From positions 1 through 64,000 of the forward strand of contig NZ_JANQJQ010000029.1 of NCBI RefSeq assembly GCF_028281565.1: a DNA stretch of 64,000 nucleotides, given 5' to 3'. This document shows, in pieces, positions 46,044 through 58,606 of this stretch. The notes below the pieces were generated by a model, which did no database searches, was not told the origin of the DNA, and saw only the letters and a list, made by a program, of their open reading frames with translations. The position numbers and the translations under genes were made by a program. The first letter of the stretch is position 1; every line of letters starts with the position of its first letter. This stretch comes from Seonamhaeicola sp. GTDB lineage: Bacteria; Bacteroidota; Bacteroidia; Flavobacteriales; Flavobacteriaceae.

Positions 46044-47318
46044 TTACTGGGGAAACTTATCCCTTATTTTATCTAAACACAAATTGTGAACACTCCCAAC
46101 ATGGGTATGTTTTTTGGAGGTATCGGGAACATAGGTTCCGTCCTGCACTTGTCCACCAATTTTTTGATACGCCTCCCTAAAGCTTTGGCCTTCTACCACC
46201 AGCGTATTGATGTTATCAACCGTAAACAGGTACTTATATTTATCATCATTTAAATCAATATCCTTGACAATCACCTGTTGAATCGCATAATTGAAAATAT
46301 CCAGGATATCTTTTAAATCTTCAAAAGCGGCGATCATATTTTCCTTTAACAACTGAAAATCCCTGTGATAGCCACTTGGTAAATTGTTGGTGATCAACAC
46401 CATTTCGCCCTGAAGCGCCTGGATCTTATTACTTTTTCCTCTGATCAATTCAAACACATCCGGGTTCTTTTTATGTGGCATGATACTACTACCGGTGGTC
46501 AACTCATCCGGGAAGGTCACAAACCCAAAATTCTGGCTCATATACAAACATACATCCATAGCAAATCTGGATAGGGTATTCGCTAAACTTCCCAAAGCTG
46601 CTGCAATGGTTCGTTCATTTTTCCCTCTCCCCATTTGAGCCGCTACCACATTGTACTTTAAGGTAGCAAAATCCATTTCTTTGGTTGTTAATTCTCTATC
46701 TATAGGGAATGAACTTCCGTAACCTGCTGCAGACCCTAACGGATTTTGGTCCACTGTTCTTAGAGCCGCATTCAATAAATATACGTCATCGATCATTAAC
46801 TCTGCATAGGCCGAAAACCACAACCCAAACGAGGATGGCATGGCTACTTGTAGATGGGTGTATCCCGGTAATAACTTATCTTTATGAGTCTCTGCTAAAT
46901 CTAATAACGTATCAAAAAGTGCTTTTACTTTAGATTGAATTAATTGCAAGTTCTCCTTGTAATACAAATGGCAGGCCACTAAAACCTGGTCGTTTCTGGA
47001 ACGTGCCGTATGGATCTTTTTACCAACATCTCCAAGGGTTTTAGTCAGCTCAAACTCGATTTTGGAATGTACGTCTTCAAACTGCTCATCTATAACAAAA
47101 GTTCCTGCTTCTATCTGAGAGTCCAATACATCTAACCCTTTTAACAATTGCTCTAATTCTTCAGCAGATAGAATGCCGATGCTTTGCAGCATTTTAGCAT
47201 GTGCTTTTGAAGCAATGACATCATACTTAGCGATGTGAATATCAATCTCCCGATCGTTACCCACCGTGAATTGTTCTATTTTATTATCTATGGATATGCC
47301 TTTGTCCCAGAGTTTCAT
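46044..47318 (-). CDS. argH: Argininosuccinate lyase
   Basis: This enzyme catalyses the last step of arginine synthesis, argininosuccinate to arginine and fumarate. The 424-residue protein belongs to the fumarase/aspartase superfamily. The signature GSSIMPHKKNPDVFE is intact (residues about 272-286). The N-terminal KIHTARSRNDQV and central LLPGYTHLQVAMP are also intact. It is somewhat shorter than the usual 450-470 residues, with the difference at the C-terminus. It is the last arginine gene, 99 nt after argE, followed closely by the sialate esterase gene. Confidence 0.96.
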   Translation of the reverse strand: MKLWDKGISIDNKIEQFTVGNDREIDIHIAKYDVIASKAHAKMLQSIGILSAEELEQLLKGLDVLDSQIEAGTFVIDEQFEDVHSKIEFELTKTLGDVGKKIHTARSRNDQVLVACHLYYKENLQLIQSKVKALFDTLLDLAETHKDKLLPGYTHLQVAMPSSFGLWFSAYAELMIDDVYLLNAALRTVDQNPLGSAAGYGSSFPIDRELTTKEMDFATLKYNVVAAQMGRGKNERTIAAALGSLANTLSRFAMDVCLYMSQNFGFVTFPDELTTGSSIMPHKKNPDVFELIRGKSNKIQALQGEMVLITNNLPSGYHRDFQLLKENMIAAFEDLKDILDIFNYAIQQVIVKDIDLNDDKYKYLFTVDNINTLVVEGQSFREAYQKIGGQVQDGTYVPDTSKKHTHVGSVHNLCLDKIRDKFPQ

Positions 47319-47417
47319 GTTTTTTGATGTTTATCTGTTTATTCGTTGATCTGTTTAATTGAACATGTTTTTGTGTTGATTCGTTTAAGCGGTTACACAA
47401 ATCCACGATTCAACTAT

Positions 47418-48482
47418 TTATACGATGACTCGATTCAACAATTCAACATATATTTTAATACCTTCTTCTATTTCTTTTAAATAAATAAATTCATCTGCCG
47501 AATGGGAACGTGTGCTATCTCCCGGCCCAAGTTTTAAACTAGGACAAGACAGCACCGCCTGGTCCGATAAGGTTGGCGACCCATAGGTTGATCTTCCCAT
47601 AGCCACACCTGCTTTTACCAAATCATGGTCCGTTGGAATGGATGACGAATTTAATCGTAAACTTCTTGGTATAATACTGGTTACCGGTGCTTCCTTCTGC
47701 AAGATCTCAGCAATTTCGGCATTGCTGTAGGCATCGTTTACCCGAACATCAATTACCAAACTCAGATCGGCAGGAACTGCATTGTGCTGCTTACCGGCGT
47801 TGATCTGGCTCACCGTTAATTTTACATCGCCAAGGGCTTCAGAGCCTTTTTCAAACTTAAAATCTTTAAACCATTGTAATGCTTTAATGGACTTATAGAT
47901 CACATTATCATCATTTGGATGCGCCGCATGACTTGGTGTTCCTGTTATTATCGCATCAAAAACCACTAAACCTTTTTCCGCAACCGCTAAATTCATGAGG
48001 GTTGGTTCGCCTACAATGGCCACGTCAATCTTTGGAATGACAGACAGCATACTGTTCAATCCGTTAGGTCCACTACTCTCTTCTTCGGCGGAAGCCACAA
48101 TAACCAGGTTGTATTTTAAATTGTCATGATTGTAATAATAGGTAAACGCAGCGATCAAAGACACCAAACAGCCACCGGCATCGTTACTCCCCAATCCGTA
48201 CAATTTACCGTTTTCAACAATAGCTTTAAACGGATCTTTTGTATAAGCAGAATTGGGTTTTACCGTATCGTGATGCGAGTTCAATAACAGCGTTGGTCTG
48301 CTCGCATCAAAGTGTTTATTAACTGTCCAAACGTTATTTTGAGTTCTTTTATAATCGATGCCATAACGCTGAAACCAGGCTTCTATATGAGCCGCCGTTT
48401 GATCTTCTTCTGATGAAAACGATTGGGTTTCTATCAGTTGCTTTAACAAGGCAATGGCTTCTCGGGTTAATTCCTGAATCAT
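47418..48482 (-). CDS. argE: M20-family deacetylase (N-acylcitrulline/ornithine), ArgE-like
   Basis: This cytosolic dizinc amidohydrolase (354 residues) has NSHHDTV (metal His and Asp), LGSNDAGGCLVSL (bridging Asp) and SAEEESSGPNGLN (catalytic Glu-Glu). Because the operon encodes an N-acylornithine carbamoyltransferase instead of ordinary ArgF, it should remove the acyl group from N-acetyl- (or N-succinyl-) citrulline. The ATG at 48480-48482 is preferred. An in-frame GTG six bases upstream overlaps the argB stop (GTGA) and is also possible. The HSADEFIYLKEIEEGIKIY segment fits the family C-terminus. Confidence 0.9.
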   Translation of the reverse strand: MIQELTREAIALLKQLIETQSFSSEEDQTAAHIEAWFQRYGIDYKRTQNNVWTVNKHFDASRPTLLLNSHHDTVKPNSAYTKDPFKAIVENGKLYGLGSNDAGGCLVSLIAAFTYYYNHDNLKYNLVIVASAEEESSGPNGLNSMLSVIPKIDVAIVGEPTLMNLAVAEKGLVVFDAIITGTPSHAAHPNDDNVIYKSIKALQWFKDFKFEKGSEALGDVKLTVSQINAGKQHNAVPADLSLVIDVRVNDAYSNAEIAEILQKEAPVTSIIPRSLRLNSSSIPTDHDLVKAGVAMGRSTYGSPTLSDQAVLSCPSLKLGPGDSTRSHSADEFIYLKEIEEGIKIYVELLNRVIV

Positions 48483-48484
48483 GA

Positions 48485-49264
48485 TCACAGTGTTATGCTT
48501 GTAAAATTATCATTCTCCTGGGTTAACATCGCCGTGTTACCCATATTAATGGTGCTTACACCATTGTTCAACGCATCAAAACAATTCTCCAGTTTCGGTA
48601 ACATACCATCGGCTATGATACCTTTCTCTAACAATTCGGCATATAACTTCGAATCGATATGTTTAATCACCGAATTCTTGTCATTGATATCTTCCAACAC
48701 CCCGTTCAATTCAAAACAGTAATAAATGGAAGTTTCATACACTTCGCTCATACCCACAGCTACCTGTGACGTAATGGTATCGGCATTGGTATTTAAAAGC
48801 TGTCCGTTACCGTCATGCGTGATAGCACAAAATACCGGCGTAAAACCGGCTTTGATTAATTTATCTACTGAATTATGAGCTACTGCCTTTACATCACCTA
48901 CAAAACCAAAATCAACCTCTTTTACGGGCCTTTTATCAGAGGTGATACTATTCACATCCGCTCCCGTTAATCCAATAGCATCTATGTTTAGGGCCTGTAA
49001 TTTAGCAACAATGTTCTTGTTTACCAAGCCGCCATATACCATAGTAATCACTTCTAAAGTATCAGCATCCGTAATACGTCTGCCATGGACCATTTTGGAT
49101 TCAATGCCCAATTTCGCGGCTACACTTGTAGCGCGCTTTCCACCACCATGCACCAATATTTTTTTGCCCTCTAACTTTGAGAACAACTTTAGAAAAGCAT
49201 CTAAAGCACCGGCATCTTCAATGATGTTACCTCCTATTTTTACTATGGATAGTTTTTCTTTCAT
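48485..49264 (-). CDS. argB: Acetylglutamate kinase
   Basis: This amino-acid kinase-fold enzyme (259 residues) phosphorylates N-acylglutamate. Motifs are KIGGNIIED at the N-terminus, LVHGGGKRATSVAAKLGI (substrate loop), VNKNIVAKLQ and TNADTITSQVA, the acidic ATP/Mg site. No N-terminal extension typical of arginine-feedback-inhibited hexameric kinases is visible. It may therefore be the arginine-insensitive dimeric type, making leader-based control more important; this is inference. It lies between argF' and argE. Confidence 0.94.
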   Translation of the reverse strand: MKEKLSIVKIGGNIIEDAGALDAFLKLFSKLEGKKILVHGGGKRATSVAAKLGIESKMVHGRRITDADTLEVITMVYGGLVNKNIVAKLQALNIDAIGLTGADVNSITSDKRPVKEVDFGFVGDVKAVAHNSVDKLIKAGFTPVFCAITHDGNGQLLNTNADTITSQVAVGMSEVYETSIYYCFELNGVLEDINDKNSVIKHIDSKLYAELLEKGIIADGMLPKLENCFDALNNGVSTINMGNTAMLTQENDNFTSITL

Positions 49265-49276
49265 TTCTTTTTATTT

Positions 49277-49349
49277 GTCATGCTGAATTTATTTCAGCAT
49301 CTCAACTCCTCATATTCACGATGTGATTCTGAAACAAGTTCAGAATGAC
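49277..49349. repeat. Palindromic repeat in argF'-argB gap
   Basis: GTCA...TGAC ends enclose hairpins ATGCTGAA-TTTA-TTTCAGCAT and ATTCTGAA...TTCAGAAT. It is of the same family as 8657 and 22388 and fills most of the 91-nt intercistronic gap. Confidence 0.7.
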
Positions 49350-49355
49350 GAAGAT

Positions 49356-50294
49356 TTACAAATCTTCTAACAGTTTTTTTAACACCAATTGCGCCGCATA
49401 GGTTCTGTTATTGGCCTGTTCAATAACAATGGAACTATCGCTATCCAGTACAGCATCTTCAACCACAACATTACGTCTTACAGGTAAACAATGCATAAAC
49501 TTGGCATTGCCAATTTTGTTTTTGGTTATCATCCAGTTAGGATCTGTATTCACTACTTTCCCGTAGTCTTCATAAGAACTCCAGTTTTTAGTATATATAA
49601 AATCGGCATCCTTAAAAGCTTCCTCTTGGTTGTGATAAATGGGTGTATTACCAGTAATTTCCGGATTCAAATCATAGCCTTCGGGGTTAGCGATGACAAA
49701 CTCCACATCCATTTTCTGCATGGCCTGAATAAAGCTATTGCCCACAGCGTGTGGTAATGCTTTGATATGAGGCGCCCAACTTAATACTACTTTGGGTTTA
49801 GCTACTTTGACATACTCTGAAATGGTAAGCGCATCCGTTAACCCTTGTAACGGGTGCCCTGTAGCACTTTCCATATTCACAATAGGTACCGAAGCGTGTT
49901 TCATAAAGGCATTCATAACCTGTTCACTTTCGTCCTTAGCTTTATCCGTTAAGGTTGGAAACGCCCTCACAGCAATAATATCACAATACTGAGACACTAC
50001 AGCAGCGGCCTCCTTAATATGTTCTGCCGTGTTACCACTCATAATCGTGCCATCATCAAACTCCAATCCCCAGGCATCTCCGGACACATTCATTACAATA
50101 GGATTCATTCCTAAATTTAAAGCTGCCTTCTGGGTACTTAAACGCGTTCGTAAACTGGAATTAAAAAACAACAATCCTAAGGTTTTGTTCTTTCCTAATG
50201 CTATATGTTTTAAAGGCTCCGCTTTTAATGCCTTGGCTTCTTCAATCCAGGTATCGATGTTATCTATATCATTTATGGAGGTATAATGTTTCAT
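49356..50294 (-). CDS. argF': N-acetyl/N-succinylornithine carbamoyltransferase
   Basis: This is the Bacteroidota-type transcarbamylase (312 residues), which acts on N-acylated ornithine instead of free ornithine. The carbamoyl-phosphate loop reads FFNSSLRTRLS, differing from the STRTR of ordinary ArgF, and the second signature is MHCLPVRRNVVVED. GHPLQGLTDALTI also matches the family. In Bacteroides fragilis the characterised enzyme uses succinylornithine; in Xanthomonas the relative uses acetylornithine. The choice here cannot be made by eye. It lies between proB and argB. Confidence 0.92.
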   Translation of the reverse strand: MKHYTSINDIDNIDTWIEEAKALKAEPLKHIALGKNKTLGLLFFNSSLRTRLSTQKAALNLGMNPIVMNVSGDAWGLEFDDGTIMSGNTAEHIKEAAAVVSQYCDIIAVRAFPTLTDKAKDESEQVMNAFMKHASVPIVNMESATGHPLQGLTDALTISEYVKVAKPKVVLSWAPHIKALPHAVGNSFIQAMQKMDVEFVIANPEGYDLNPEITGNTPIYHNQEEAFKDADFIYTKNWSSYEDYGKVVNTDPNWMITKNKIGNAKFMHCLPVRRNVVVEDAVLDSDSSIVIEQANNRTYAAQLVLKKLLEDL

Positions 50295-50342
50295 TTTTTT
50301 CTCTTTGAGACCTCTCAGGTCTTTACTGTTAATCCTTTTTAA

Positions 50343-50373
50343 GACCTACAAGGTCTTAGAAACCTTGCAGGTC
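50343..50373. repeat. Palindromic repeat in proB-argF' gap
   Basis: Arms GACCTACAAGGT and ACCTTGCAGGTC (one mismatch) enclose a 7-nt loop. This AGACCT...AGGTC type is widespread in Bacteroidota. A smaller GACCT-CTC-AGGTC hairpin is close by at about 50309-50321. Confidence 0.68.
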
Positions 50374-50378
50374 AGTCA

Positions 50379-51140
50379 TTATTTTATCTTCGTAAACGGC
50401 ACTTTGCTTTCCATAGCATTCAGTATGAAATTATCTTCCAATCCGTTTACGATCCATGTTTCTATATTTGCTTTTCTAGTGACTTCGGCAGCTTCTATTT
50501 TAGATTGCATGCCGCCACTTCCGTGTGAGGACTTAGCACTCACTATCTCATCTGCCAATTCTCTAAAATCGGTGACCTCTTTAATAGTGGCCGGTGTACC
50601 GTTTTCCATAGACACCTTCGTGTAAATACCATTGGTGTTCGTTGCGATAATAAATAGGTCGGCATCCAATAATGAGGCTGTTAAAGCGCCTAGCTTATCG
50701 TTATCACCAAATTTGATCTCGTCAGTGGCCACCGTATCATTCTCATTAATGATCGGAATGTAATTATTATTCACTAAAACATTAATGGTATTGGTGATGT
50801 TCACCTTACTTTCTTCCTTTTCAAAATCGGAATACGACAATAAACACTGTGAACTCAATAACCCATATTCCCTAAAAATCTCCTGGTAAATCCTAATTAA
50901 ATGGGGTTGTCCAATAGACGCCAGTGCCTGCTTCACAAAAATAGGCTTACGCTTGCTTTCCAGCTTTACAAATTGTTTTGCCACGGCAATAGCCCCGGAA
51001 CTCACAATAATAAACTCGCAGGTATCCTGAAGTTGTGCAATCTGGCTTGCGATATCTTCAATCTTCCCCCTGGAAATATTATCAGTTTCCTTAGTTAAAG
51101 TATTCGACCCTACTTTTAGTAATATGCGTTTTTTACTCAT
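50379..51140 (-). CDS. proB: Glutamate 5-kinase, short form
   Basis: This is the first enzyme of proline synthesis, phosphorylating glutamate. The 253-residue protein contains the amino-acid kinase domain only: LLKVGSNTLTKE, FIIVSSGAIA, PIINENDTVATDEIKFGDND and SHGSGGMQSKIEAA. It lacks the C-terminal PUA domain of E. coli ProB (about 367 residues), so it is a naturally short form, not a truncation; the reading frame ends cleanly. It follows proA with a 49-nt gap. Proline feedback may differ without PUA. Confidence 0.93.
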   Translation of the reverse strand: MSKKRILLKVGSNTLTKETDNISRGKIEDIASQIAQLQDTCEFIIVSSGAIAVAKQFVKLESKRKPIFVKQALASIGQPHLIRIYQEIFREYGLLSSQCLLSYSDFEKEESKVNITNTINVLVNNNYIPIINENDTVATDEIKFGDNDKLGALTASLLDADLFIIATNTNGIYTKVSMENGTPATIKEVTDFRELADEIVSAKSSHGSGGMQSKIEAAEVTRKANIETWIVNGLEDNFILNAMESKVPFTKIK

Positions 51141-51189
51141 CTTGTTATTTACAAGCTCTAGCTCATTTTTTAAATACCCGTTTACGGGC

Positions 51190-52386
51190 TTATCGTATTT
51201 GTCCTTCTCCGTGAACGTACCATTTATTGGTTACCAAATGTTGCAGACCAATAGGTCCTCTTTGGTGTAATTTATCAGTACTGATGGCTAACTCGCCTCC
51301 CAAACCTAATTGTCCGCCGTCCGTGAATCTGGTAGAGGCATTATGGTAAACCGCTGCGGTATCCACATTTTCCATGAACAATTTAGCTTCAGCTTCAACC
51401 GTTGTAATAATGGAAGCCGAATGCCCGCCACTGTATTTATTGATCATTCCAATAGCGGCTTCATTCGATGCTATTTCTCCAATAACGATCTTATAATCTA
51501 AAAACTCCTCGTACCAAATAGTATCCGATTGAATAGCTTCTATATCGTCATAGGAAGCAAGTGCCTCATCACCTAAAATCTCCACATTAAACGTCTTAAG
51601 TTTTGAAATCAACTCGTTAATAAAGTGCTCTTTATTTGGAAGATTCTTATCTATCAATACTTTATCTACGGCATTGCAAGCTGAAATTTTAGCCGTTTTT
51701 CCGTTGATGATCACATCCAAGGCAGTTTGTTTATCAGCATCCTGTTGCACGTATACGAAGTTATTACCACGACCGCTAACTATTACCGGACACGCCGCAT
51801 GTTCCTTTACAAAAGCGATCAAACGCTCCCCTCCCCGAGGCACAATCAAATCAACTCTTTGGGATGGCTTCTCTAAAAACGCCTGTGTTTCAGTACGGTT
51901 GAACTGTAAATACTCAACCCAATCGGTAGAAGCACCATTTTCCTTTAGTGCCTGATGCCATAATTCAACGATCTTTAAATTAGATTGAAGCGATTCTTTT
52001 CCGCCTTTTAACAATATCTTGTTCCCGGATTTAAAAGCAATACCGGCAGCCTCTACCGTTACGTCAGGCCTGGATTCGTAGATGATCAATACAGTTCCAA
52101 ACGAAGCCGTTTTGTTATACACCTGCATACCGTTATCGTGTTTAAATCTGAATCGTTCCACACCTACAGGATCTTCCTGTGAGGCTAAATGGGTCACCGA
52201 TCGTTTCATTTCATCAACTTTATCATCATTCACTTTCAATCGGTCATACATGGCTACGTCTCCTCCATCATAAGCATCCAGATCTGTTTTATTAATGGCG
52301 ATGATATTGGCTCTTTCCTGTTCTAAAAGCTCAGCCATTCTTAATAAAACGGCATTTCTTGTTTCTATGGATAATAATGTGTTCAT
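51190..52386 (-). CDS. proA: Glutamate-5-semialdehyde dehydrogenase
   Basis: This NADPH-dependent aldehyde-dehydrogenase-family enzyme (398 residues) reduces glutamyl-5-phosphate to the semialdehyde. Seen motifs are GTVLIIYESRPDVTVEAAG near residues 96-114, LKGGKES, LIVPRGGERL and, near the C-terminus, ASTRFTDGGQLGLGGELAIS. HQRGPIGLQHL closes the protein. Length is typical. It is upstream of proB, the reverse order of the classical proBA pair, inside the arginine operon. Confidence 0.95.
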   Translation of the reverse strand: MNTLLSIETRNAVLLRMAELLEQERANIIAINKTDLDAYDGGDVAMYDRLKVNDDKVDEMKRSVTHLASQEDPVGVERFRFKHDNGMQVYNKTASFGTVLIIYESRPDVTVEAAGIAFKSGNKILLKGGKESLQSNLKIVELWHQALKENGASTDWVEYLQFNRTETQAFLEKPSQRVDLIVPRGGERLIAFVKEHAACPVIVSGRGNNFVYVQQDADKQTALDVIINGKTAKISACNAVDKVLIDKNLPNKEHFINELISKLKTFNVEILGDEALASYDDIEAIQSDTIWYEEFLDYKIVIGEIASNEAAIGMINKYSGGHSASIITTVEAEAKLFMENVDTAAVYHNASTRFTDGGQLGLGGELAISTDKLHQRGPIGLQHLVTNKWYVHGEGQIR

Positions 52387-52474
52387 CTTTTTTAATATTC
52401 TATTCTCATTCTTATGGGATTTCTCCTATCGTCGAAATGACAACCTTACTTTAATTTGACAGTGTCATGTCGAC

Positions 52475-52490
52475 CCCGATAACTATCGGG
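52475..52490. repeat. CCCGAT hairpin in argD-proA gap
   Basis: CCCGAT-AACT-ATCGGG forms a perfect 6-bp hairpin inside a 129-nt intercistronic gap. The same CCCGATAG...CTATCGGG palindrome appears in the element at 61891. Confidence 0.62.
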
Positions 52491-52515
52491 AGAGACATCT
52501 CATAACTACAGGATT

Positions 52516-53661
52516 CTATACATTTACTTCTATTTTTGCCAAAGCTTTAACCAAAGCATCAAAAAACTGGTCTATATGTTCTTTCTTTACGCTTAATGGC
52601 GGTAAAATCCGCAACAACTTTTTATTGGCTGCTCCACCGGTAAACACCTTGTGATTATAGATTAACTCTTTTCTAAGGCCTCCTACTTCAAAATCAAATT
52701 CCAGCCCAAGCATTAAGCCTCTTCCTTTAATTTCCTTTATTTGCGGTATATCTTTAGTCTTTTCAATGAAGTAAGCACCTACTTCATTTACATTGTCTAT
52801 CAGGCTCTCCGATTCAATAGTATTTAATACTGCCAAACCAGCCGCACATGCTAAATGATTACCTCCAAACGTGGTTCCTAACATACCATACTTGGCTTCG
52901 ATACCGGGGTGAATTAAAATCCCTCCGATTGGAAACCCGTTCCCCATGCCTTTGGCCACGGAAATGATATCCGGTGTTACATTGTAATGTTGAAAGGCAA
53001 AGAATTTACCTGAACGTGCGTAACCACATTGAATTTCATCAGCCACAAACATAGTATTGTTGGCTTTACACAAAGCATCCACCTGCTCAAAGAACTCAGC
53101 TGTTCCCTGGTCCAACCCACCAATACCCTGAATGAACTCCACGATTACCGCACAAACATCCCCTTTTTCCAGTTCCGTTTTAACAGCTTCCACATCATTC
53201 AATTCTAAAATGGTCACCTCTTGTTGCGCATTTATGGGCGCTACAATATTCGGATTATCGGTAGCTGCTACAGCTGCCGATGTACGTCCGTGAAAGCCTT
53301 TTTTAAACGATACTACACGTTTCTTTCCTGTTTTAAAAGATGCTAATTTTAAAGCATTCTCGTTGGCTTCCGCTCCGGAATTCACTAAAAACAACTGGTA
53401 GTCTTTGCAACCGGAAAGTTGTTCCAGTTTACTTGCCAGTTCTTTTTGTAACGGATTCTGAATAGCATTGGAATAAAACCCTAAAGTTTCAACCTGATTG
53501 GTAACAGCCTCCACATAATTTGGATGTGCATGTCCAATGGAAATCACTGCATGGCCTCCGTAAAGATCGAGATATTCAGTTCCTTTATCATCGTAAACAT
53601 GAATCCCCTTACCCGAAACCGGTGTTACGTCATATAATGGATAAACGTCAAATAATGGCAT
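52516..53661 (-). CDS. argD: Acetylornithine-type aminotransferase
   Basis: This PLP enzyme (381 residues, class III) exchanges the amino group between acylglutamate semialdehyde and acylornithine. Motifs are LDLYGGHAVISIGHAHP, FVADEIQCGYARSGKFFAFQ, and the PLP lysine in ISVAKGMGNGFPIGG. MLGTTFGGNHLACAAGLA follows. The position 2 nt after proC and inside the arg operon supports ArgD over a general omega-aminotransferase. It could also serve ornithine aminotransfer, joining arginine and proline pools (inference). Confidence 0.93.
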   Translation of the reverse strand: MPLFDVYPLYDVTPVSGKGIHVYDDKGTEYLDLYGGHAVISIGHAHPNYVEAVTNQVETLGFYSNAIQNPLQKELASKLEQLSGCKDYQLFLVNSGAEANENALKLASFKTGKKRVVSFKKGFHGRTSAAVAATDNPNIVAPINAQQEVTILELNDVEAVKTELEKGDVCAVIVEFIQGIGGLDQGTAEFFEQVDALCKANNTMFVADEIQCGYARSGKFFAFQHYNVTPDIISVAKGMGNGFPIGGILIHPGIEAKYGMLGTTFGGNHLACAAGLAVLNTIESESLIDNVNEVGAYFIEKTKDIPQIKEIKGRGLMLGLEFDFEVGGLRKELIYNHKVFTGGAANKKLLRILPPLSVKKEHIDQFFDALVKALAKIEVNV

Positions 53662-53663
53662 TT

Positions 53664-54458
53664 TTAACTCTTTTTAATTTGATTAATTTTTTCGAATGAA
53701 GCATTGATCCCCTTGATCAAGGATGAACTTAATCCCTGGTGCTCCATTTCATTCAATCCTTCAATGGTACATCCACTTGGCGTGGTTACCCTATCGATCT
53801 CAGCCTCCGGGTGTCTACCGGATTCCTTCAATAAACTGGCTGCGCCGTAACAGGTTTGCAATGCCAATTCGTGAGCTTCTTCAGCTTCAAAGCCCAATTG
53901 GATAGCACCTTGTGTAGTGGCACGTACCAAACGCATCCAAAAGGCAATACCACTGGCACAAATCACTGTGGCCGCCTGAATCTGCTCTTCCGGAATAACC
54001 ATGGTAGTTCCTAACTGATTAAATATTTTCTGAGCCAATTCAATTTTTTCTTCCCCCACGTCGTTAGCCGATAAACAGGTCATGGATTTTCCTATGGAAA
54101 TAGCCGTATTGGGCATCACACGAATAATATGTTTATCCGCACCAATCACACTTTCAATCTTTGAAATGGCAAATCCTGCAGCTACCGACATGATTAAATG
54201 CTTTTTGGTAATTTCAGATGCCACTTCCTTCAATACGCCTTCTACGTGTCTGGGCTGCAATGCGAAAATTACCAAATCAGAGTTCATAACCGCTTCTTTA
54301 TTATAGTTGGTTATAGTTACATAGTCTTCATCTTCAAATTGCGAAACAGCTGAGGTATTCTTATCACTTAAATACAAAGACGTAAATGACTTATTATTGA
54401 TCAACCCTTTTGCTATGGAGCTTCCTAAGTTTCCGGTTCCTATAATGGCTATTTTCAT
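53664..54458 (-). CDS. proC: Pyrroline-5-carboxylate reductase
   Basis: This NADPH-dependent enzyme (264 residues) performs the last step of proline synthesis. The N-terminal Rossmann motif is KIAIIGTGNLGSSIAKGL. VIFALQPRHV and VRVMPNTAISIGKSMT follow, and the C-terminal signature is VTTPSGCTIEGLNEMEHQG. The length is standard. It is followed after 2 nt by argD. Confidence 0.95.
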   Translation of the reverse strand: MKIAIIGTGNLGSSIAKGLINNKSFTSLYLSDKNTSAVSQFEDEDYVTITNYNKEAVMNSDLVIFALQPRHVEGVLKEVASEITKKHLIMSVAAGFAISKIESVIGADKHIIRVMPNTAISIGKSMTCLSANDVGEEKIELAQKIFNQLGTTMVIPEEQIQAATVICASGIAFWMRLVRATTQGAIQLGFEAEEAHELALQTCYGAASLLKESGRHPEAEIDRVTTPSGCTIEGLNEMEHQGLSSSLIKGINASFEKINQIKKS

Positions 54459-54480
54459 AATTTCTATAAGCCCCTCCTAA

Positions 54481-54580
54481 CCTCCCCGAAGGGGAGGAAT
54501 TAAGGAACTATGTTTTTTTAATTGTTATCATTTCTTTTCAATAAATCCTATAAACATTCTTTCCCCCTCCTTTGGAGGGG
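54481..54580. repeat. Paired GC-rich hairpins in argC-proC gap
   Basis: Perfect hairpins CCTCCCC-GAA-GGGGAGG (54481-54497) and CCCCTCC-TTT-GGAGGGG (54564-54580) bound this spacer. They are GC-rich in an AT-rich context and mirror each other in type. They may attenuate or stabilise the downstream message. Confidence 0.7.
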
Positions 54581-54590
54581 TTAAGGGAGG

Positions 54591-55568
54591 CTAAAAATAC
54601 GTAGCTTTTAGATGTAATCCTGTTGTTTCTTCCAATCCGAACATTAAATTCATGTTCTGAATGGCTTGCCCGGATGCTCCTTTCAATAAATTATCAATAA
54701 TGCTGGTCACCAACAATTTACCATTGTGTTTGTGCAAATGGATCAAACACTTGTTAGTGTTAACTGCCTGTTTTAAGTGCAACTGGTCATCGCTCACAAA
54801 TGTAAAAGCGGCATCTTTATAAAAGTCCTTATAAATGACTTTAGCATCCTCTACCGACCCTTCAAAACCGGTATAAATGGTTGCAAAGATCCCTCTAGAG
54901 AAGTTCCCCCTGTTTGGCATAAACAAAATATCGGAATCGAAATTCTCCTGTAACTGTTTTACCGATTGATTGATCTCTCCCAAGTGCTGATGTGTAAATG
55001 GTTTGTAATACGAAAAGTTATTATCTCTCCACGTAAAATGTGTTGTAGCTGATAATGAGGTTCCCGCTCCGGTAGCTCCCGTCACCGCATTGATATGCAC
55101 ATCCTGATTTAGCAAGCCTGCATCTGCCAATGGTAACAAACCTAATTGAATGGCTGTAGCAAAACACCCCGGATTTGCAATATAGTTTGCTTGTTCTATA
55201 GCTTCTTTTTGTAATTCCGGTAAACCATAAACAAAGGTTTTACCATCAAACATTTTATCTGCTTCTAATCTAAAATCATTTCCTAAATCAATAATTTTAG
55301 TGTTTTCGGAAAATGTATTATTTTCTAAAAATTTAACTGAATTCCCGTGACCTAAACATAAAAACAACACATCTACATTAGGGTTCACGGTATCCGTAAA
55401 CGTCTTATCTAAAGAGCCCACCAGATCCTGGTGCACTTTACTAATCCGGTTGCCGGCATTACTGGTACTGAACACAAAATCAATCTCTGCTTCCGGATGA
55501 GCAATCAGCAATCTGATTAACTCTCCTGCCGTATAACCGGCACCTCCTATGATTCCTACCTGTATCAT
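54591..55568 (-). CDS. argC: N-acetyl-gamma-glutamyl-phosphate reductase
   Basis: This NADPH-dependent enzyme (325 residues) reduces acylglutamyl phosphate to the semialdehyde. The nucleotide motif is VGIIGGAGYTAGELIRLL. The active-site cysteine lies in IANPGCFATAIQLGLLPLA, and the family signature GATGAGTSLSATTHF follows. Its start overlaps the argG stop by 1 nt. Confidence 0.96.
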   Translation of the reverse strand: MIQVGIIGGAGYTAGELIRLLIAHPEAEIDFVFSTSNAGNRISKVHQDLVGSLDKTFTDTVNPNVDVLFLCLGHGNSVKFLENNTFSENTKIIDLGNDFRLEADKMFDGKTFVYGLPELQKEAIEQANYIANPGCFATAIQLGLLPLADAGLLNQDVHINAVTGATGAGTSLSATTHFTWRDNNFSYYKPFTHQHLGEINQSVKQLQENFDSDILFMPNRGNFSRGIFATIYTGFEGSVEDAKVIYKDFYKDAAFTFVSDDQLHLKQAVNTNKCLIHLHKHNGKLLVTSIIDNLLKGASGQAIQNMNLMFGLEETTGLHLKATYF

Positions 55569-56746
55569 TACTTTGAGTTTACCTGTTGATATATTTTATT
55601 CTGGTTTCCAAGAATTTTGATAAATCCTTTTGCATCATCAGCTGTCCACGCTTTATTCTCTTCTCCATAACTTCCAAACTTGGCACTCATTAAATCATGT
55701 TCTGAGCTAATACCGTCCAATGAGAAATGATAAGGCTTTAAAGTTACAAATACATCACCACTTACCTTATCCTGGCTGTTCTGTAAAAAGGCTTCCATAT
55801 CTCTCATCACGGGATCTAAATACTGACCTTCATGTAAATGCATACCATAAAAACTGGATAAATATTCTTTATGCTGTAATTGCCATTTGGTTAAGGTATG
55901 CTTCTCTAATAAATGATGTGCCTTTATGGTAATTAAAGCAGCTGCAGCTTCAAACCCTACTCTACCTTTAATACCCACAATGGTGTCTCCCACATGGATG
56001 TCTCTTCCAATGGCATACACAGATGCCAGGTTATTTAACACTTCAATATTAACTTCAGGTGCATTTTCAATACCATTTACGGCTACTAATTCCCCTTTTT
56101 CAAAAGTCAGTTTTACTTTTTCATCTTCAGCGTGTTTTAATTGAGAAGGATACGCTTCATCCGGTAAAGGTTTTTCGGAAGTCAACGTTTCTGCCCCTCC
56201 AACACTGGTTCCCCACAAGCCTTTATTGATTGAATACTGCGCTTTTTCCCAGGACATATCAATACCATTTGATTTTAAATAATCAATCTCTTCCTGCCTT
56301 GTTAATTTTTGATCTCTAATGGGTGTGATGATCTTAATACCAGGCGCCAGGGTTTGAAAGATCATATCAAACCTTACCTGGTCATTACCTGCGCCGGTAC
56401 TACCATGCGCAATATATTCTGCTCCAATACTTTTGGCATATTCAACAATCTCTATGGCCTGAATAATACGTTCTGCACTCACCGATAATGGATAGGTATT
56501 ATTCTTTAATACATTTCCGAAAATTAAATATTTTACCACCTTTTGGTAAAAGGTTGCTATGGCATCTACATTTTTATAGGTAGTTACACCCATTTTATAG
56601 GCTTTGGTCTCTATATCATTAATCTCTTCCTGTGTAAAGCCTCCCGTGTTTACACTTACCGCATGCACTTCATATTCTTTTGATAAACTCACCGCGCAAT
56701 ACGATGTATCTAATCCGCCACTATATGCTATTACTAACTTTTTCAT
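55568..56746 (-). CDS. argG: Argininosuccinate synthase
   Basis: This N-type ATP pyrophosphatase (392 residues) condenses citrulline and aspartate. The ATP loop is LVIAYSGGLDTSYCAVSL at the N-terminus. AHGSTGAGNDQVRFD (citrulline/Asp site) follows, along with ITPIRDQKLTRQEEIDYL and YSINKGLWGTSVGG. The length is typical. It overlaps the upstream GNAT gene by 4 nt (ATGA) and argC by 1 nt. Confidence 0.96.
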   Translation of the reverse strand: MKKLVIAYSGGLDTSYCAVSLSKEYEVHAVSVNTGGFTQEEINDIETKAYKMGVTTYKNVDAIATFYQKVVKYLIFGNVLKNNTYPLSVSAERIIQAIEIVEYAKSIGAEYIAHGSTGAGNDQVRFDMIFQTLAPGIKIITPIRDQKLTRQEEIDYLKSNGIDMSWEKAQYSINKGLWGTSVGGAETLTSEKPLPDEAYPSQLKHAEDEKVKLTFEKGELVAVNGIENAPEVNIEVLNNLASVYAIGRDIHVGDTIVGIKGRVGFEAAAALITIKAHHLLEKHTLTKWQLQHKEYLSSFYGMHLHEGQYLDPVMRDMEAFLQNSQDKVSGDVFVTLKPYHFSLDGISSEHDLMSAKFGSYGEENKAWTADDAKGFIKILGNQNKIYQQVNSK

Positions 56747-57372
56747 GTGTTTGTTTTATTATTTTTTCTTAAAAACAAGGCTTGTTTTATTCTTTTTAAT
56801 CTTTTAAATACTTTTTCTTTAATGGGTTTTGGCTCTTCTTCCTGTCCTATTTTTTCAGGATCGAACAGCATGCCGGTACATAAACACATTTTACGATTTG
56901 TTCTGGTTAACACATCGTAATTTTTACAGGTCTGGCAACCATCCCAAAAAGTTTGGTCGTCTGTTAACTCTGAGAACGTTACCGGTTTATAACCTAAATC
57001 ACTATTCATTTTCATGACCGCTAATCCGGTAGTGATACTAAATACTTTGGCATCGGGGAATTTCGCCCTGGAATGTGCAAATACTTTTAGTTTGATCTTT
57101 TTAGCTAAACCCTGCCCTCTGTAATCCGGATGCACAATGAGTCCTGAGTTGGCTACAAATTTACCATGGCCCCATCTTTCAATGTAACAAAAGCCGGCAA
57201 AGGTATCACCATCCAACGCAATAACGGCATTACCATTCTCCATTTTAGAAGCAATGTACTCCGGTGTACGTTTAGCAATTCCCGTACCTCTGACCGATGC
57301 TGATTCTGCAATGGTTTCGCTAATGTTCCGGGCGTATTTAATATGTGTTTTATCGGCTATAACAACCTTCAT
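56743..57372 (-). CDS. GNAT acetyltransferase with Cys motif, arg operon
   Basis: This GNAT-fold acyltransferase (209 residues) opens the arginine operon and overlaps argG by 4 nt. The acetyl-CoA loop is GLIVHPDYRGQGLAKKIK (RGQGLA). Unusually, the C-terminal part has CQTCKNYD and RKMCLCTGM, four cysteines of CxxC...CxC type that could bind zinc. A basic tail (KVFKRLKRIKQALFLRKN) ends the protein. No other argA, argJ or N-acylglutamate synthase gene lies in the operon, so it is a candidate for the first acylation of glutamate. That is inference; a regulatory role is the alternative. Confidence 0.85.
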   Translation of the reverse strand: MKVVIADKTHIKYARNISETIAESASVRGTGIAKRTPEYIASKMENGNAVIALDGDTFAGFCYIERWGHGKFVANSGLIVHPDYRGQGLAKKIKLKVFAHSRAKFPDAKVFSITTGLAVMKMNSDLGYKPVTFSELTDDQTFWDGCQTCKNYDVLTRTNRKMCLCTGMLFDPEKIGQEEEPKPIKEKVFKRLKRIKQALFLRKNNKTNT

Positions 57373-57458
57373 CTTTTTCCTTTAATTGAATGTCTATGAT
57401 TTTACTTTTCCTGGAAGCTGAACCGGACGCACCTGATTCAATAAATTATTGCATACCC

Positions 57459-57509
57459 TTACGGGCGACGCGGGAAAAAGCGGCGTACAAAGTAGCTGTT
57501 AATTATCAT
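57459..57509 (-). CDS. Putative arginine leader peptide 2
   Basis: This is a 16-residue ORF, MIINSYFVRRFFPRRP, starting with ATG and ending TAA, 86 nt upstream of the first operon gene. Four of the last eight residues are Arg, coded CGC CGC and CGT CGC, conspicuously GC-rich in an AT-rich context. A short CCC-GUAA-GGG hairpin overlaps the stop codon. It has no resemblance to a normal protein but fits a ribosome-stalling leader whose translation senses charged tRNA-Arg. This interpretation is inference from position and codon content. Confidence 0.62.
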   Translation of the reverse strand: MIINSYFVRRFFPRRP

Positions 57510-57600
57510 GGAATTAACTTTATTTTGAAATGCTATGAAAAAAATTTTGGACACTTTGAAAAAATTTAAAATTACGTTTTTAGGTTTACTTTAGGGCATA

Positions 57601-57672
57601 TTAAATGCAGCGGCGACGGCGCGGGGGCAAACCGGGAGTAGTACAACGTATTTTACTTTTTAAATTTTTCAT
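57601..57672 (-). CDS. Putative arginine leader peptide 1
   Basis: This is a 23-residue ORF with an ATG start and TAA stop. It begins MKNLKSKIR and ends PPRRRRCI, so it has four consecutive Arg codons (CGC CGT CGC CGC) just before the end, plus one earlier Arg. It lies 91 nt upstream of the second leader ORF and 228 nt upstream of the GNAT start, on the same strand as the operon. The Arg run falls in a markedly GC-rich patch. It is most simply read as an attenuation leader sensing arginine; it was found by inspection and lacks comparative support here. Confidence 0.62.
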   Translation of the reverse strand: MKNLKSKIRCTTPGLPPRRRRCI

Positions 57673-57800
57673 GAGGTAAAACTATAATTTTATTTTTAAA
57701 AACCTGCACACACCATGTTAGTTTTTTAAAAAATTATTGAAAATGCTTTTTTTTGATTGATTTATTTTAAAAAATGTAATCAATCCTAAGTTTTCGTATT

Positions 57801-57850: not shown

Positions 57851-58606
57851 TTAATTTAATTCTCTTATCCAAATGTTACGGTAACTCACTAAATCACCGT
57901 GATCTTGTAAAAAAATAGGGCCTTTACCATGAGCTTTATAGCTTGGTTCGCCTCTGTAAACTGTAGGCCCCTGAATTTCGAAATGGTCTTGTATCAAAAC
58001 CCCATTGTGCAGAACGGTAATGGTAGCTTTTTTTGTAACTTTTCCTTGTTCATCAAACTCGGGCTGATGGTAAATGATATCGTAACTATTCCACGCGCCT
58101 GTTGGAACGGATGCCATAGCTAATGGAATGGATTGTTTATAAACAGACCCTACCTGGCCATTAGAGTAGGTTTCGTTATCATTATTATCTAATACCTGAA
58201 TTTCATAACGCCCCTGAATGAACACACCACTGTTACCAAGTCCCTGACCGCTTTTACCTTCCACTTTTTCAGGCGATCGCCATTCAATATGCAACTGCAT
58301 GCTACCAAAGGTTTGTTTGGTTCTAATACCGCCTGTTTTGGGCTTCACGGTCATAGAGCCATCTGCATTTAATGTCCACTCTGCAGTTGCTCCCTTACCA
58401 TTAATCCAGTTATCAAAATTAGAACCGTCAAATAATACAATGGCATCACTTGGAGCCGTATGGTCTTTACCGGGAGTGACCTTAGGTACTTTAGGCTCCC
58501 ATACTTCGGTAAGTTTTGGGTCTATCAATTGCTCTTTTTTCTCCTGCCCTTTACAAACCATAAAGGAAAGTCCCAGTGCTAAAACACTAACAAATAGCTT
58601 ATTCAT
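57851..58606 (-). CDS. DUF1080 (3-keto-disaccharide hydrolase-like) protein A
   Basis: This 251-residue exported protein has a concanavalin-like beta-sandwich. The signal MNKLFVSVLALGLSFMVCKGQ may be lipidated at the Cys. Domain landmarks are IVLFDGSNFDNWING, GGIRTKQTFGSMQLHIEWRSP, GNSGVFIQGRYEIQVLD and IFLQDHGDLVSYRNIWIREL. DUF1080 members have been shown to cleave 3-keto-glycosides. With the GMC dehydrogenase upstream, this suggests cleavage of a C3-oxidised sugar. It is the last gene of the cluster, 5 nt after its paralogue. Confidence 0.86.
   Translation of the reverse strand: MNKLFVSVLALGLSFMVCKGQEKKEQLIDPKLTEVWEPKVPKVTPGKDHTAPSDAIVLFDGSNFDNWINGKGATAEWTLNADGSMTVKPKTGGIRTKQTFGSMQLHIEWRSPEKVEGKSGQGLGNSGVFIQGRYEIQVLDNNDNETYSNGQVGSVYKQSIPLAMASVPTGAWNSYDIIYHQPEFDEQGKVTKKATITVLHNGVLIQDHFEIQGPTVYRGEPSYKAHGKGPIFLQDHGDLVSYRNIWIRELN

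Follow-up and report, generated by a model that had tools for sequence, protein, structure and literature searches.

We analysed a 64 kb stretch of DNA, hereafter called the window. The minus strand of the window between positions 46044 and 57372 encodes an arginine/proline operon, and the findings described here concern its leader. The first gene (56743..57372, minus strand) encodes a GNAT acetyltransferase that matches Pfam PF00583 and PF13508. Behind it (46044..56746, minus strand) are argG, argC, proC, argD, proA, proB, the gene for N-acetylornithine carbamoyltransferase, argB, the gene for an ArgE/DapE-type deacylase, and argH, assigned by NCBIfam and open reading frames. For argG, argD, the deacylase and the GNAT protein, the best NCBIfam matches are under the cut-offs, and the names used here reflect best match and gene order. 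The GNAT protein is far under the cut-off of its sole NCBIfam match, an N-acetyltransferase. As the product of the gene heading an arginine operon it may, at a guess, be the missing acyl-glutamate synthase. The protein encoded by the upstream neighbour (57854-58606) had no NCBIfam match.

Arginine-rich leader frames and their predicted promoter

The first leader frame, ORF1 (57601..57672, minus strand), has the sequence MKNLKSKIRCTTPGLPPRRRRCI. It was taken from the list of open reading frames and aligned with its relatives (18 sequences including the window). The second frame, ORF2 (57459..57554, minus strand), ends VRRFFPRRP-stop. A first-pass annotation, made from the sequence, had placed two ATG-TAA mini-ORFs in the operon sense before the operon. 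The positions, 57601-57672 and 57459-57509 on the minus strand, are borne out, as is the description of ORF1 as 23 codons with CGC CGT CGC CGC near the end. The eight clustered Arg codons are as it described; codon 9 of ORF1 is a ninth. Such clustering was said to be unlikely by chance, and comparison with the intergenic ATG mini-ORFs (8-45 aa) of the 64 kb window agrees. Among these 47 mini-ORFs, four Arg in eight residues occur only in ORF1, ORF2 and an antisense frame. The antisense frame (57605-57679, plus strand, MQRRRRGGKPGVVQ...) overlaps the Arg codons of ORF1, and this overlap probably explains its Arg richness. One further match to an Arg-like peptide (C29, E 2.9) was rejected, with no arginine gene in view.

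Conservation was examined in two samples. The GNAT protein was matched in 98 of 149 genomes of the family (one per genus). The upstream regions of these matches, together with that of a paralogue in the window's own genome, make 99 regions. Two hairpins, P1 and P2, described below, fixed where ORF2 ends in 89 of them; nine were without the P2 pattern and one was without an anchor. Among the 89 regions, the ORF2 frame is open for at least 25 codons in 84, has an in-frame ATG, GTG or TTG 20-60 codons upstream of its end in 86 and has at least three Arg among its last 12 codons in 82. The peptide ends R-R-P in 79 regions and a stop follows directly in 69. At L021, L023 and other family loci with no stop in the P1 loop the peptide extends, for example as P-L-G-V or P-L-R-V.

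The second sample is of named loci in Flavobacteriaceae (Algibacter, Hyunsoonleella, Seonamhaeicola, Tamlana, Polaribacter, Gelidibacter and others). It consists of the best 80 of 218 relatives, is biased to close ones and draws partly on the same genomes as the 99 regions. Among these best 80, the P2 core was present in 78, an open ORF2 with an NTG start in 78 and at least three Arg in the last 12 ORF2 codons in 66. ORF1 lay behind a −7 promoter box in 73 (74 matches minus L306, which is ORF2 itself). The first-pass annotation had set comparison of the region upstream of argG in Flavobacteriaceae as a test; both frames and their Arg runs are conserved.

The regions have two layouts. In class 1, which includes the window, ORF1 is found near −300 and is followed by ORF2. 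In class 2 there is ORF2 only, and its start is −158 to −240 from the gene in 38 of 40 regions. For class 1, two hand-picked sets of 38 regions were used. The set for the promoter box contains L008, L086 and L089; the set for the ORF2 start and for hairpin P0 is without these and has L022, L035 and L152. Neither set includes L020, L046, L057, L066 and L076, which have possible ORF1-like frames by rule, or L071, which has a possible one by eye. The frames of L046, L057, L066 and L076 start with GTG, end in Arg and are located behind a −7 box upstream of ORF2. These are possible additional ORF1-like frames.

ORF2 is longer than first supposed. The first-pass annotation gave it 16 codons from the ATG at 57509, which is absent from many class 1 genera. 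This ATG-started form (57459-57509, minus strand, MIINSYFVRRFFPRRP) is the 3' half of the frame drawn here. In relatives the frame stays open, with an NTG 28-31 codons upstream. Hence, ORF2 most likely starts at the GTG at 57554 and has 31 codons. The frame was open over at least 31 codons in 38 of 38 class 1 regions, and in 37 an ATG, GTG or TTG preceded the Pro codon by 28-31 codons; the exception, L035, has its NTG at 26-27 codons. Class 1 ORF2 ends use the Arg codons CGC (71), CGT (56), AGG (8), CGA (6) and AGA (2). In the window's long open reading frames AGA is the commonest Arg codon (201 of 619) and CGC accounts for 71. The preference for CGC and CGT at the ORF2 end is partly forced by P1.

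The closest relatives retain the RRRR of ORF1 but differ by synonymous changes in its Arg codons (CGCCGTCGCCGC, CGCCGTCGTCGC and CGTCGTCGTCGC). Across codons 2-17 of the 18 aligned sequences, 619 changes fall at third positions, compared with 406 and 452 at the others. This excess suggests a modest coding signal, possibly blurred by a helix, PX, that involves the same DNA.

Excerpts of PMC9723704 give TAnnTTTG as the Bacteroidota −7 consensus. A match, TAGTTTTA (57677..57684, minus strand), is situated 12 nt before the ORF1 ATG. With one mismatch or fewer allowed, 38 of 38 class 1 regions have such a box 12-14 nt upstream of ORF1. The identical rule, applied 40-130 nt further upstream, succeeded in 33 of 380 control cases. 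In class 2 the box is 14-18 nt before ORF2 in 28 of 40 regions (control, 31 of 400). Hence, given the place of the box and its conservation in relatives, the transcript is predicted to start at ~57672, at or adjoining the ORF1 ATG. The first-pass annotation had considered a start downstream of 57459, which is not where the box places it. By this prediction the first leader frame begins nearly at the RNA 5' end, and ORF1 would be near-leaderless.

Helices in the leader RNA

P1 (57455..57466, minus strand) is the hairpin GCCC-GUAA-GGGU, which covers the last codons and stop of ORF2. Across the family it reads CGCCC-GUAA-GGGUG and overlaps the end of ORF2, often its stop. P2 (57419..57440, minus strand) follows after an AU-rich gap. 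It has a pentaloop, UGCGU, closed by GG/CC, and a bulged A. The family pattern is GG-UGNGU-CC with a near-invariant loop, and P2 is among the most conserved features of the leader. The first-pass annotation had mentioned a weak hairpin at about 57423-57444 and a CCC-GUAA-GGG hairpin at the ORF2 stop. The former is present as P2 and is highly conserved rather than minor; the latter is P1 and is conserved too. That these were the sole structures does not hold, since P0 and PX also carry comparative evidence.

P1 and P2 were located in 94 of the 99 regions, seven of them by hand-given motifs, and 89 sequences entered the alignment; the divergent regions L011, L014, L092, L098 and L099 were left out. 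No P2 was found in five of the 99 (L008, L091, L097, L100 and L101). The 13 pairs of P1 and P2 formed in 90.3% of cells, compared with 84.4% after shuffling, and 65 cells were changed on both sides, compared with 21.3; none of 500 shuffles reached 65. These pair counts, made on a structure drawn by eye, are favoured by the omission of such regions. Further pair types were not special (20 compared with 18.1, reached by 64 of 500 shuffles), and RNAalifold by itself predicts four of the 13 pairs. Two-sided changes were seen in seven of eight P2 pairs and one of five P1 pairs, so P1 is less well supported by pair count. By eye, P1 stems are replaced in L057, L066 and L099.

Three other contacts were rejected. 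The P1 loop varies between genomes, which disfavours a GNRA tetraloop contact. A hairpin noticed by eye between the first Arg pair and P1 is inconsistent between genera. A helix between the Arg-coding stretch and the 5' arm of P2, which appeared in the fold of L036, has a mean probability of just 0.08-0.25 over genomes.

P0 (57498..57518, minus strand) is a hairpin inside ORF2, GTTAATT..AATTAAC. In class 1 all seven of its pairs changed on both sides and 92.1% were paired, compared with 76.6% after shuffling (0 of 500 shuffles), although this count benefits from the alignment of segments already centred on their best local stem. A strong P0 stem occurred in 29 of 38 class 1 regions, compared with 21% of shuffles.

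PX pairs the first 48 nt of ORF1 with the spacer preceding ORF2. Its 5' strand covers ORF1 codons 1 to ~16 (57627..57670, minus strand). Its 3' strand (57559..57589, minus strand) is just upstream of the ORF2 GTG, in what we call the ORF2 start region. Fixed-register covariation was weak: three of ten pairs had a two-sided change, a count reached by 95 of 500 shuffles. We put this down to register shifts. Hence, a cognate-pairing test with controls was used. In 36 class 1 regions, cognate strands paired at −14.47 kcal/mol and swapped strands at −11.90 kcal/mol (0 of 5000 permutations); with the second half of ORF1 as a control, the values were −7.82 and −8.18. The test was also made with 20 hand-picked, mostly divergent regions, window included. 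Here, cognate pairing was −14.67 kcal/mol compared with −11.39 kcal/mol for non-cognate (z −5.21; 0 of 10000), and four control pairings had no excess (z −0.27 to 0.92). By these comparisons, the ORF2 start region and the 5' half of ORF1 co-evolve via PX. The minimum-energy fold of the window's leader contains PX, P0, P1 and P2. Its energy is unremarkable for composition (z −1.39 for 129 nt and 0.29 for 304 nt).

Distribution of the leader

A model of P1 and P2, R1, found one strong match in the window's own genome (E 2.5e-18; the next was 0.126). Thus, the notion that P1 and P2 form a general attenuator module was rejected. In 395 genomes of the phylum, R1 matched 35 with E of 0.01 or lower. 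Of these, 17 are in the family, 16 of them below 1e-6. The other 18 matches, outside the family, have E of 5.5e-4 or worse; 14 were examined, had no GNAT-argG gene behind them and were judged chance. Within the phylum sample, at least 20 genomes of the family gave no R1 match; 19 of these belong to one genus. Three genomes of that genus have the GNAT gene, and in one of them, G127 (L091), there was no P2 before it in the region checked. Searches with Rfam 15 matched only one tRNA in the whole window, and the leader reached no gathering score.

The window's own genome has a second GNAT homologue, 53% identical and close to a contig end (G000:C6:24184-24735; L101 and L233). The 883 nt taken upstream of it contain neither an Arg leader nor P2. 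In four of seven genomes of the genus searched (G705, G706, G707 and G710) there was no match to the GNAT protein. Hence, the regulated operon may have been lost or replaced in these relatives.

At the level of the class, the GNAT gene was matched in 72 of 198 genomes. Outside the family there were 64 upstream regions, which omit two weak GNAT matches (G574 and G646). L156, L167 and L176 were dropped (start not located, cut contigs), leaving 61. A mini-ORF with at least four Arg in its last 12 residues was present at 15 of the 61 loci, compared with 0.9 after shuffling. The same rule gave 7 for Leu (shuffled, 2.8) and 1 for Ser (shuffled, 1.55). With at least three Arg, a count made without a shuffled control, there were 32 loci. 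Outside the family other Arg codons serve (AGG AGG CGA AGG in L175), so the common trait is the amino acid. Behind the 32 frames, the loop of the best hairpin is 5 nt long in 14 cases and of another length in 17, with no hairpin in one. Among the 14 five-nt loops, T is first in 11 and G is fourth in 12; examples are CC-UACGC-GG, CC-UUCGC-GG and CC-UGCGC-GG. From these few cases, we infer the same UNNGY hairpin, with its closing pairs swapped, in several other families of the class. Among 20 loci outside the family, nothing reached the Rfam thresholds.

Possible mechanisms and known systems

Taken together, the data argue that the Arg-coding leader peptides control the arginine/proline operon (probability about 0.85). 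We read the leader as a conserved and probably translation-sensed arginine switch. Clustered product codons occur in leader frames, and these frames are between a predicted promoter and a biosynthetic operon. The classical attenuator form, an intrinsic terminator with a competing antiterminator, is a different matter. A terminator scan of the window's leader found no terminator-like site, in line with the first-pass remark that a strong intrinsic terminator is absent. Moreover, no helix switching against P1 or P2 was found, and there was no dominant competing helix in folding with a ribosome mask. Hence, we do not file the leader under the classical form. The arginine-responsive ribosome stalling favoured in the first-pass annotation remains the best reading and is partly supported, by conserved frames, Arg runs and promoter position; the annotation took ORF2 to be too short and undervalued the structures. 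A ribosome-mediated attenuator with two Arg leader peptides, for which stalling and an arginine response are presumed and a cascade is the working model, has in our view somewhat better than even odds.

Folding with a ribosome mask was done for 34 class 1 and 36 class 2 genomes. The probability of P1 in the free RNA was 0.83 and 0.72, respectively. It was 0.04 or lower once the P site came within 15 nt (5 codons) of the ORF2 Pro codon. Conversely, the probability of P2 was 0.54-0.68 at all ribosome positions. In this model P1, being masked by the ribosome, can report a ribosome at the ORF2 end and P2, being indifferent, cannot. As no helix switching against either hairpin was found, the effect of P1 on transcription does not follow from the folding. 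Accessibility of the ORF2 start region (36 genomes) was 0.32 in the free RNA and 0.63 with the ORF1 strand shuffled. It was 0.35 when one ribosome was stalled at the Arg run of ORF1, 0.32 when it stood at the stop and 0.68 with a stalled and a queued ribosome. Since a single stalled ribosome leaves PX shut in the model, the cascade rests on queueing, which is an assumption.

The cascade would operate as follows. When Arg-tRNA is scarce, ribosomes would stall at the Arg run of ORF1 and queue over its 5' half; PX would open and ORF2 would be translated. Ribosomes stalled on the Arg codons of ORF2 would then hold P1 open and the operon would be read. With ample arginine, PX would stay closed and ORF2 would be little translated, or quickly left. 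P1 would fold beside P2 and expression would be cut early. Genera without ORF1 would have a one-stage version. As a whole, this scheme, in which near-leaderless ORF1 gates ORF2 via PX, ORF2 gates P1, and P2 recruits a factor that ends transcription without an intrinsic terminator, is tentative, and we give it distinctly less than an even chance. If the cascade and the P2 factor are real, they would be the arginine regulator of many Bacteroidota.

Expression could be cut by mRNA decay, by a weak U-rich terminator at P1, or by a factor acting at P2, such as Rho. Rho sites are often C-rich and G-poor. The gap from P2 to the gene has this character, with C above G in 76 of 89 regions. Were P1 and the U-rich stretch after it a weak terminator, the leader would be a case of classical intrinsic attenuation. 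T makes up 58% of the 12 nt after P1, compared with 36% of the final 45 nt ahead of the gene (n=83), and at this place ten of 100 upstream regions satisfy a terminator rule. However, P1 has only 4-5 pairs. In the window, T runs within these 12 nt do not exceed 3 and there is no terminator-like site; a T run of at least 5 follows P1 in just 14 of 83 regions. The genome's own his leader has a 12-pair terminator. We regard classical intrinsic attenuation of this kind as unlikely. The his leader in question (L224; G000:C4, upstream of hisG) encodes the His peptide MTFIQTHHHFHICSQAK, with HHHFH; behind it is a strong intrinsic terminator that has a T-rich tail. It is a classical-looking his attenuator.

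Fungal AAP and bacterial SpeFL and TnaC sense their ligands by nascent-peptide arrest, and TnaC stalls at a terminal Arg-Pro-stop. Similarly, the ORF2 peptide might sense free arginine in the ribosome and so alter P1 and the operon; its R-R-P and immediate stop in 69 of 89 family regions resemble the TnaC end. However, the Pro codon and the stop sit in P1, and the RNA may be the reason that they are preserved. If the P1 loop contains no stop, the peptide continues, for example to P-L-G-V in L021 and L090. Furthermore, the RR-P end of 79 of 89 family regions gives way to different ends outside the family (FRV, MPRA and PHGGIC), so that Arg is common whereas its context differs. For a biosynthetic operon, arrest triggered by free arginine would also have the wrong sign unless inversely coupled. 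Hence, peptide arrest seems an improbable account. So does a metabolite- or protein-binding, riboswitch-like role for P1 and P2 with the leader frames secondary, to which we assign a low probability. The bulged A and near-invariant loop of P2, and the recurrence of UNNGY loops outside the family, would suit such an RNA. Against it are the conservation of the Arg frames with their starts, the overlap of P1 with the end of an open reading frame and the lack of an Rfam match; we also judge P1/P2 small for a metabolite pocket. The idea of chance GC-rich Arg frames or a non-functional relic, prompted by short frames and GC-rich CGN codons, can be set aside, because frame, start, Arg and helices are conserved over tens of genera.

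In textbooks, arginine biosynthesis in bacteria is regulated by the repressor ArgR. A switch in Bacteroidota that senses arginine through translation would, if true, be a different solution. The occurrence of one-frame and two-frame forms in related genera raises the question of how a second sensor is added. As there is no strong terminator, the off-step of Bacteroidota attenuation becomes directly testable here, and the genome's own his leader offers the contrast. The mRNAs of the phylum are without Shine-Dalgarno sequences (PMC6847099), and PX would be a natural example of mRNA structure governing initiation.

Our search of open-licence literature, much of it in extract, recognised no report of a Bacteroidota arginine leader peptide or of P1/P2; a 2010 attenuation survey, cited in PMC4833913, might contain one. 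Leader frames in Bacteroidota are mentioned in general terms in excerpts of PMC7366714 and PMC4833913. A close comparison is Flavobacterium psychrophilum, also of Flavobacteriaceae. Structured 5' regions are described there, leader-peptide attenuation is inferred before amino-acid operons, and pheA and hisG elements are named (PMC9723704, in part). The family and the type of operon are alike; the portions of that text at hand name no arginine leader, tandem frames or P1/P2.

The his, trp and leu attenuators, and the genome's own his leader, share with the arginine leader a short frame rich in codons for the product, placed between promoter and genes, and hairpins downstream. Unlike the his, trp and leu attenuators, the arginine leader has two frames, with the start region of the second paired with the first. 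It also has a conserved P2 with a UNNGY-type loop, and a strong terminator and antiterminator were not found.

SpeFL/TnaC-type leaders work with Rho-dependent termination. They are similar in having a leader frame without a strong terminator before the operon, and the spacer after P2 in the arginine leader is C-rich and G-poor. TnaC served as the comparison system, from excerpts of PMC8429421. The SpeFL/TnaC type involves ligand-dependent arrest, which we consider improbable for the arginine leader.

Tandem leader peptides are present upstream of ermA. Two are likewise described for ermB in excerpts of PMC8274638, so that erm-type genes resemble the arginine leader in having leader peptides in series. 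We infer a further likeness, in that stalling on one peptide would alter the structure controlling the next start. The signals differ, since the arginine leader would sense an amino acid and erm-type leaders sense a drug. In the erm type, control is exerted by a sequestered gene start; the arginine leader seems to exert control at P1/P2, ahead of the gene.
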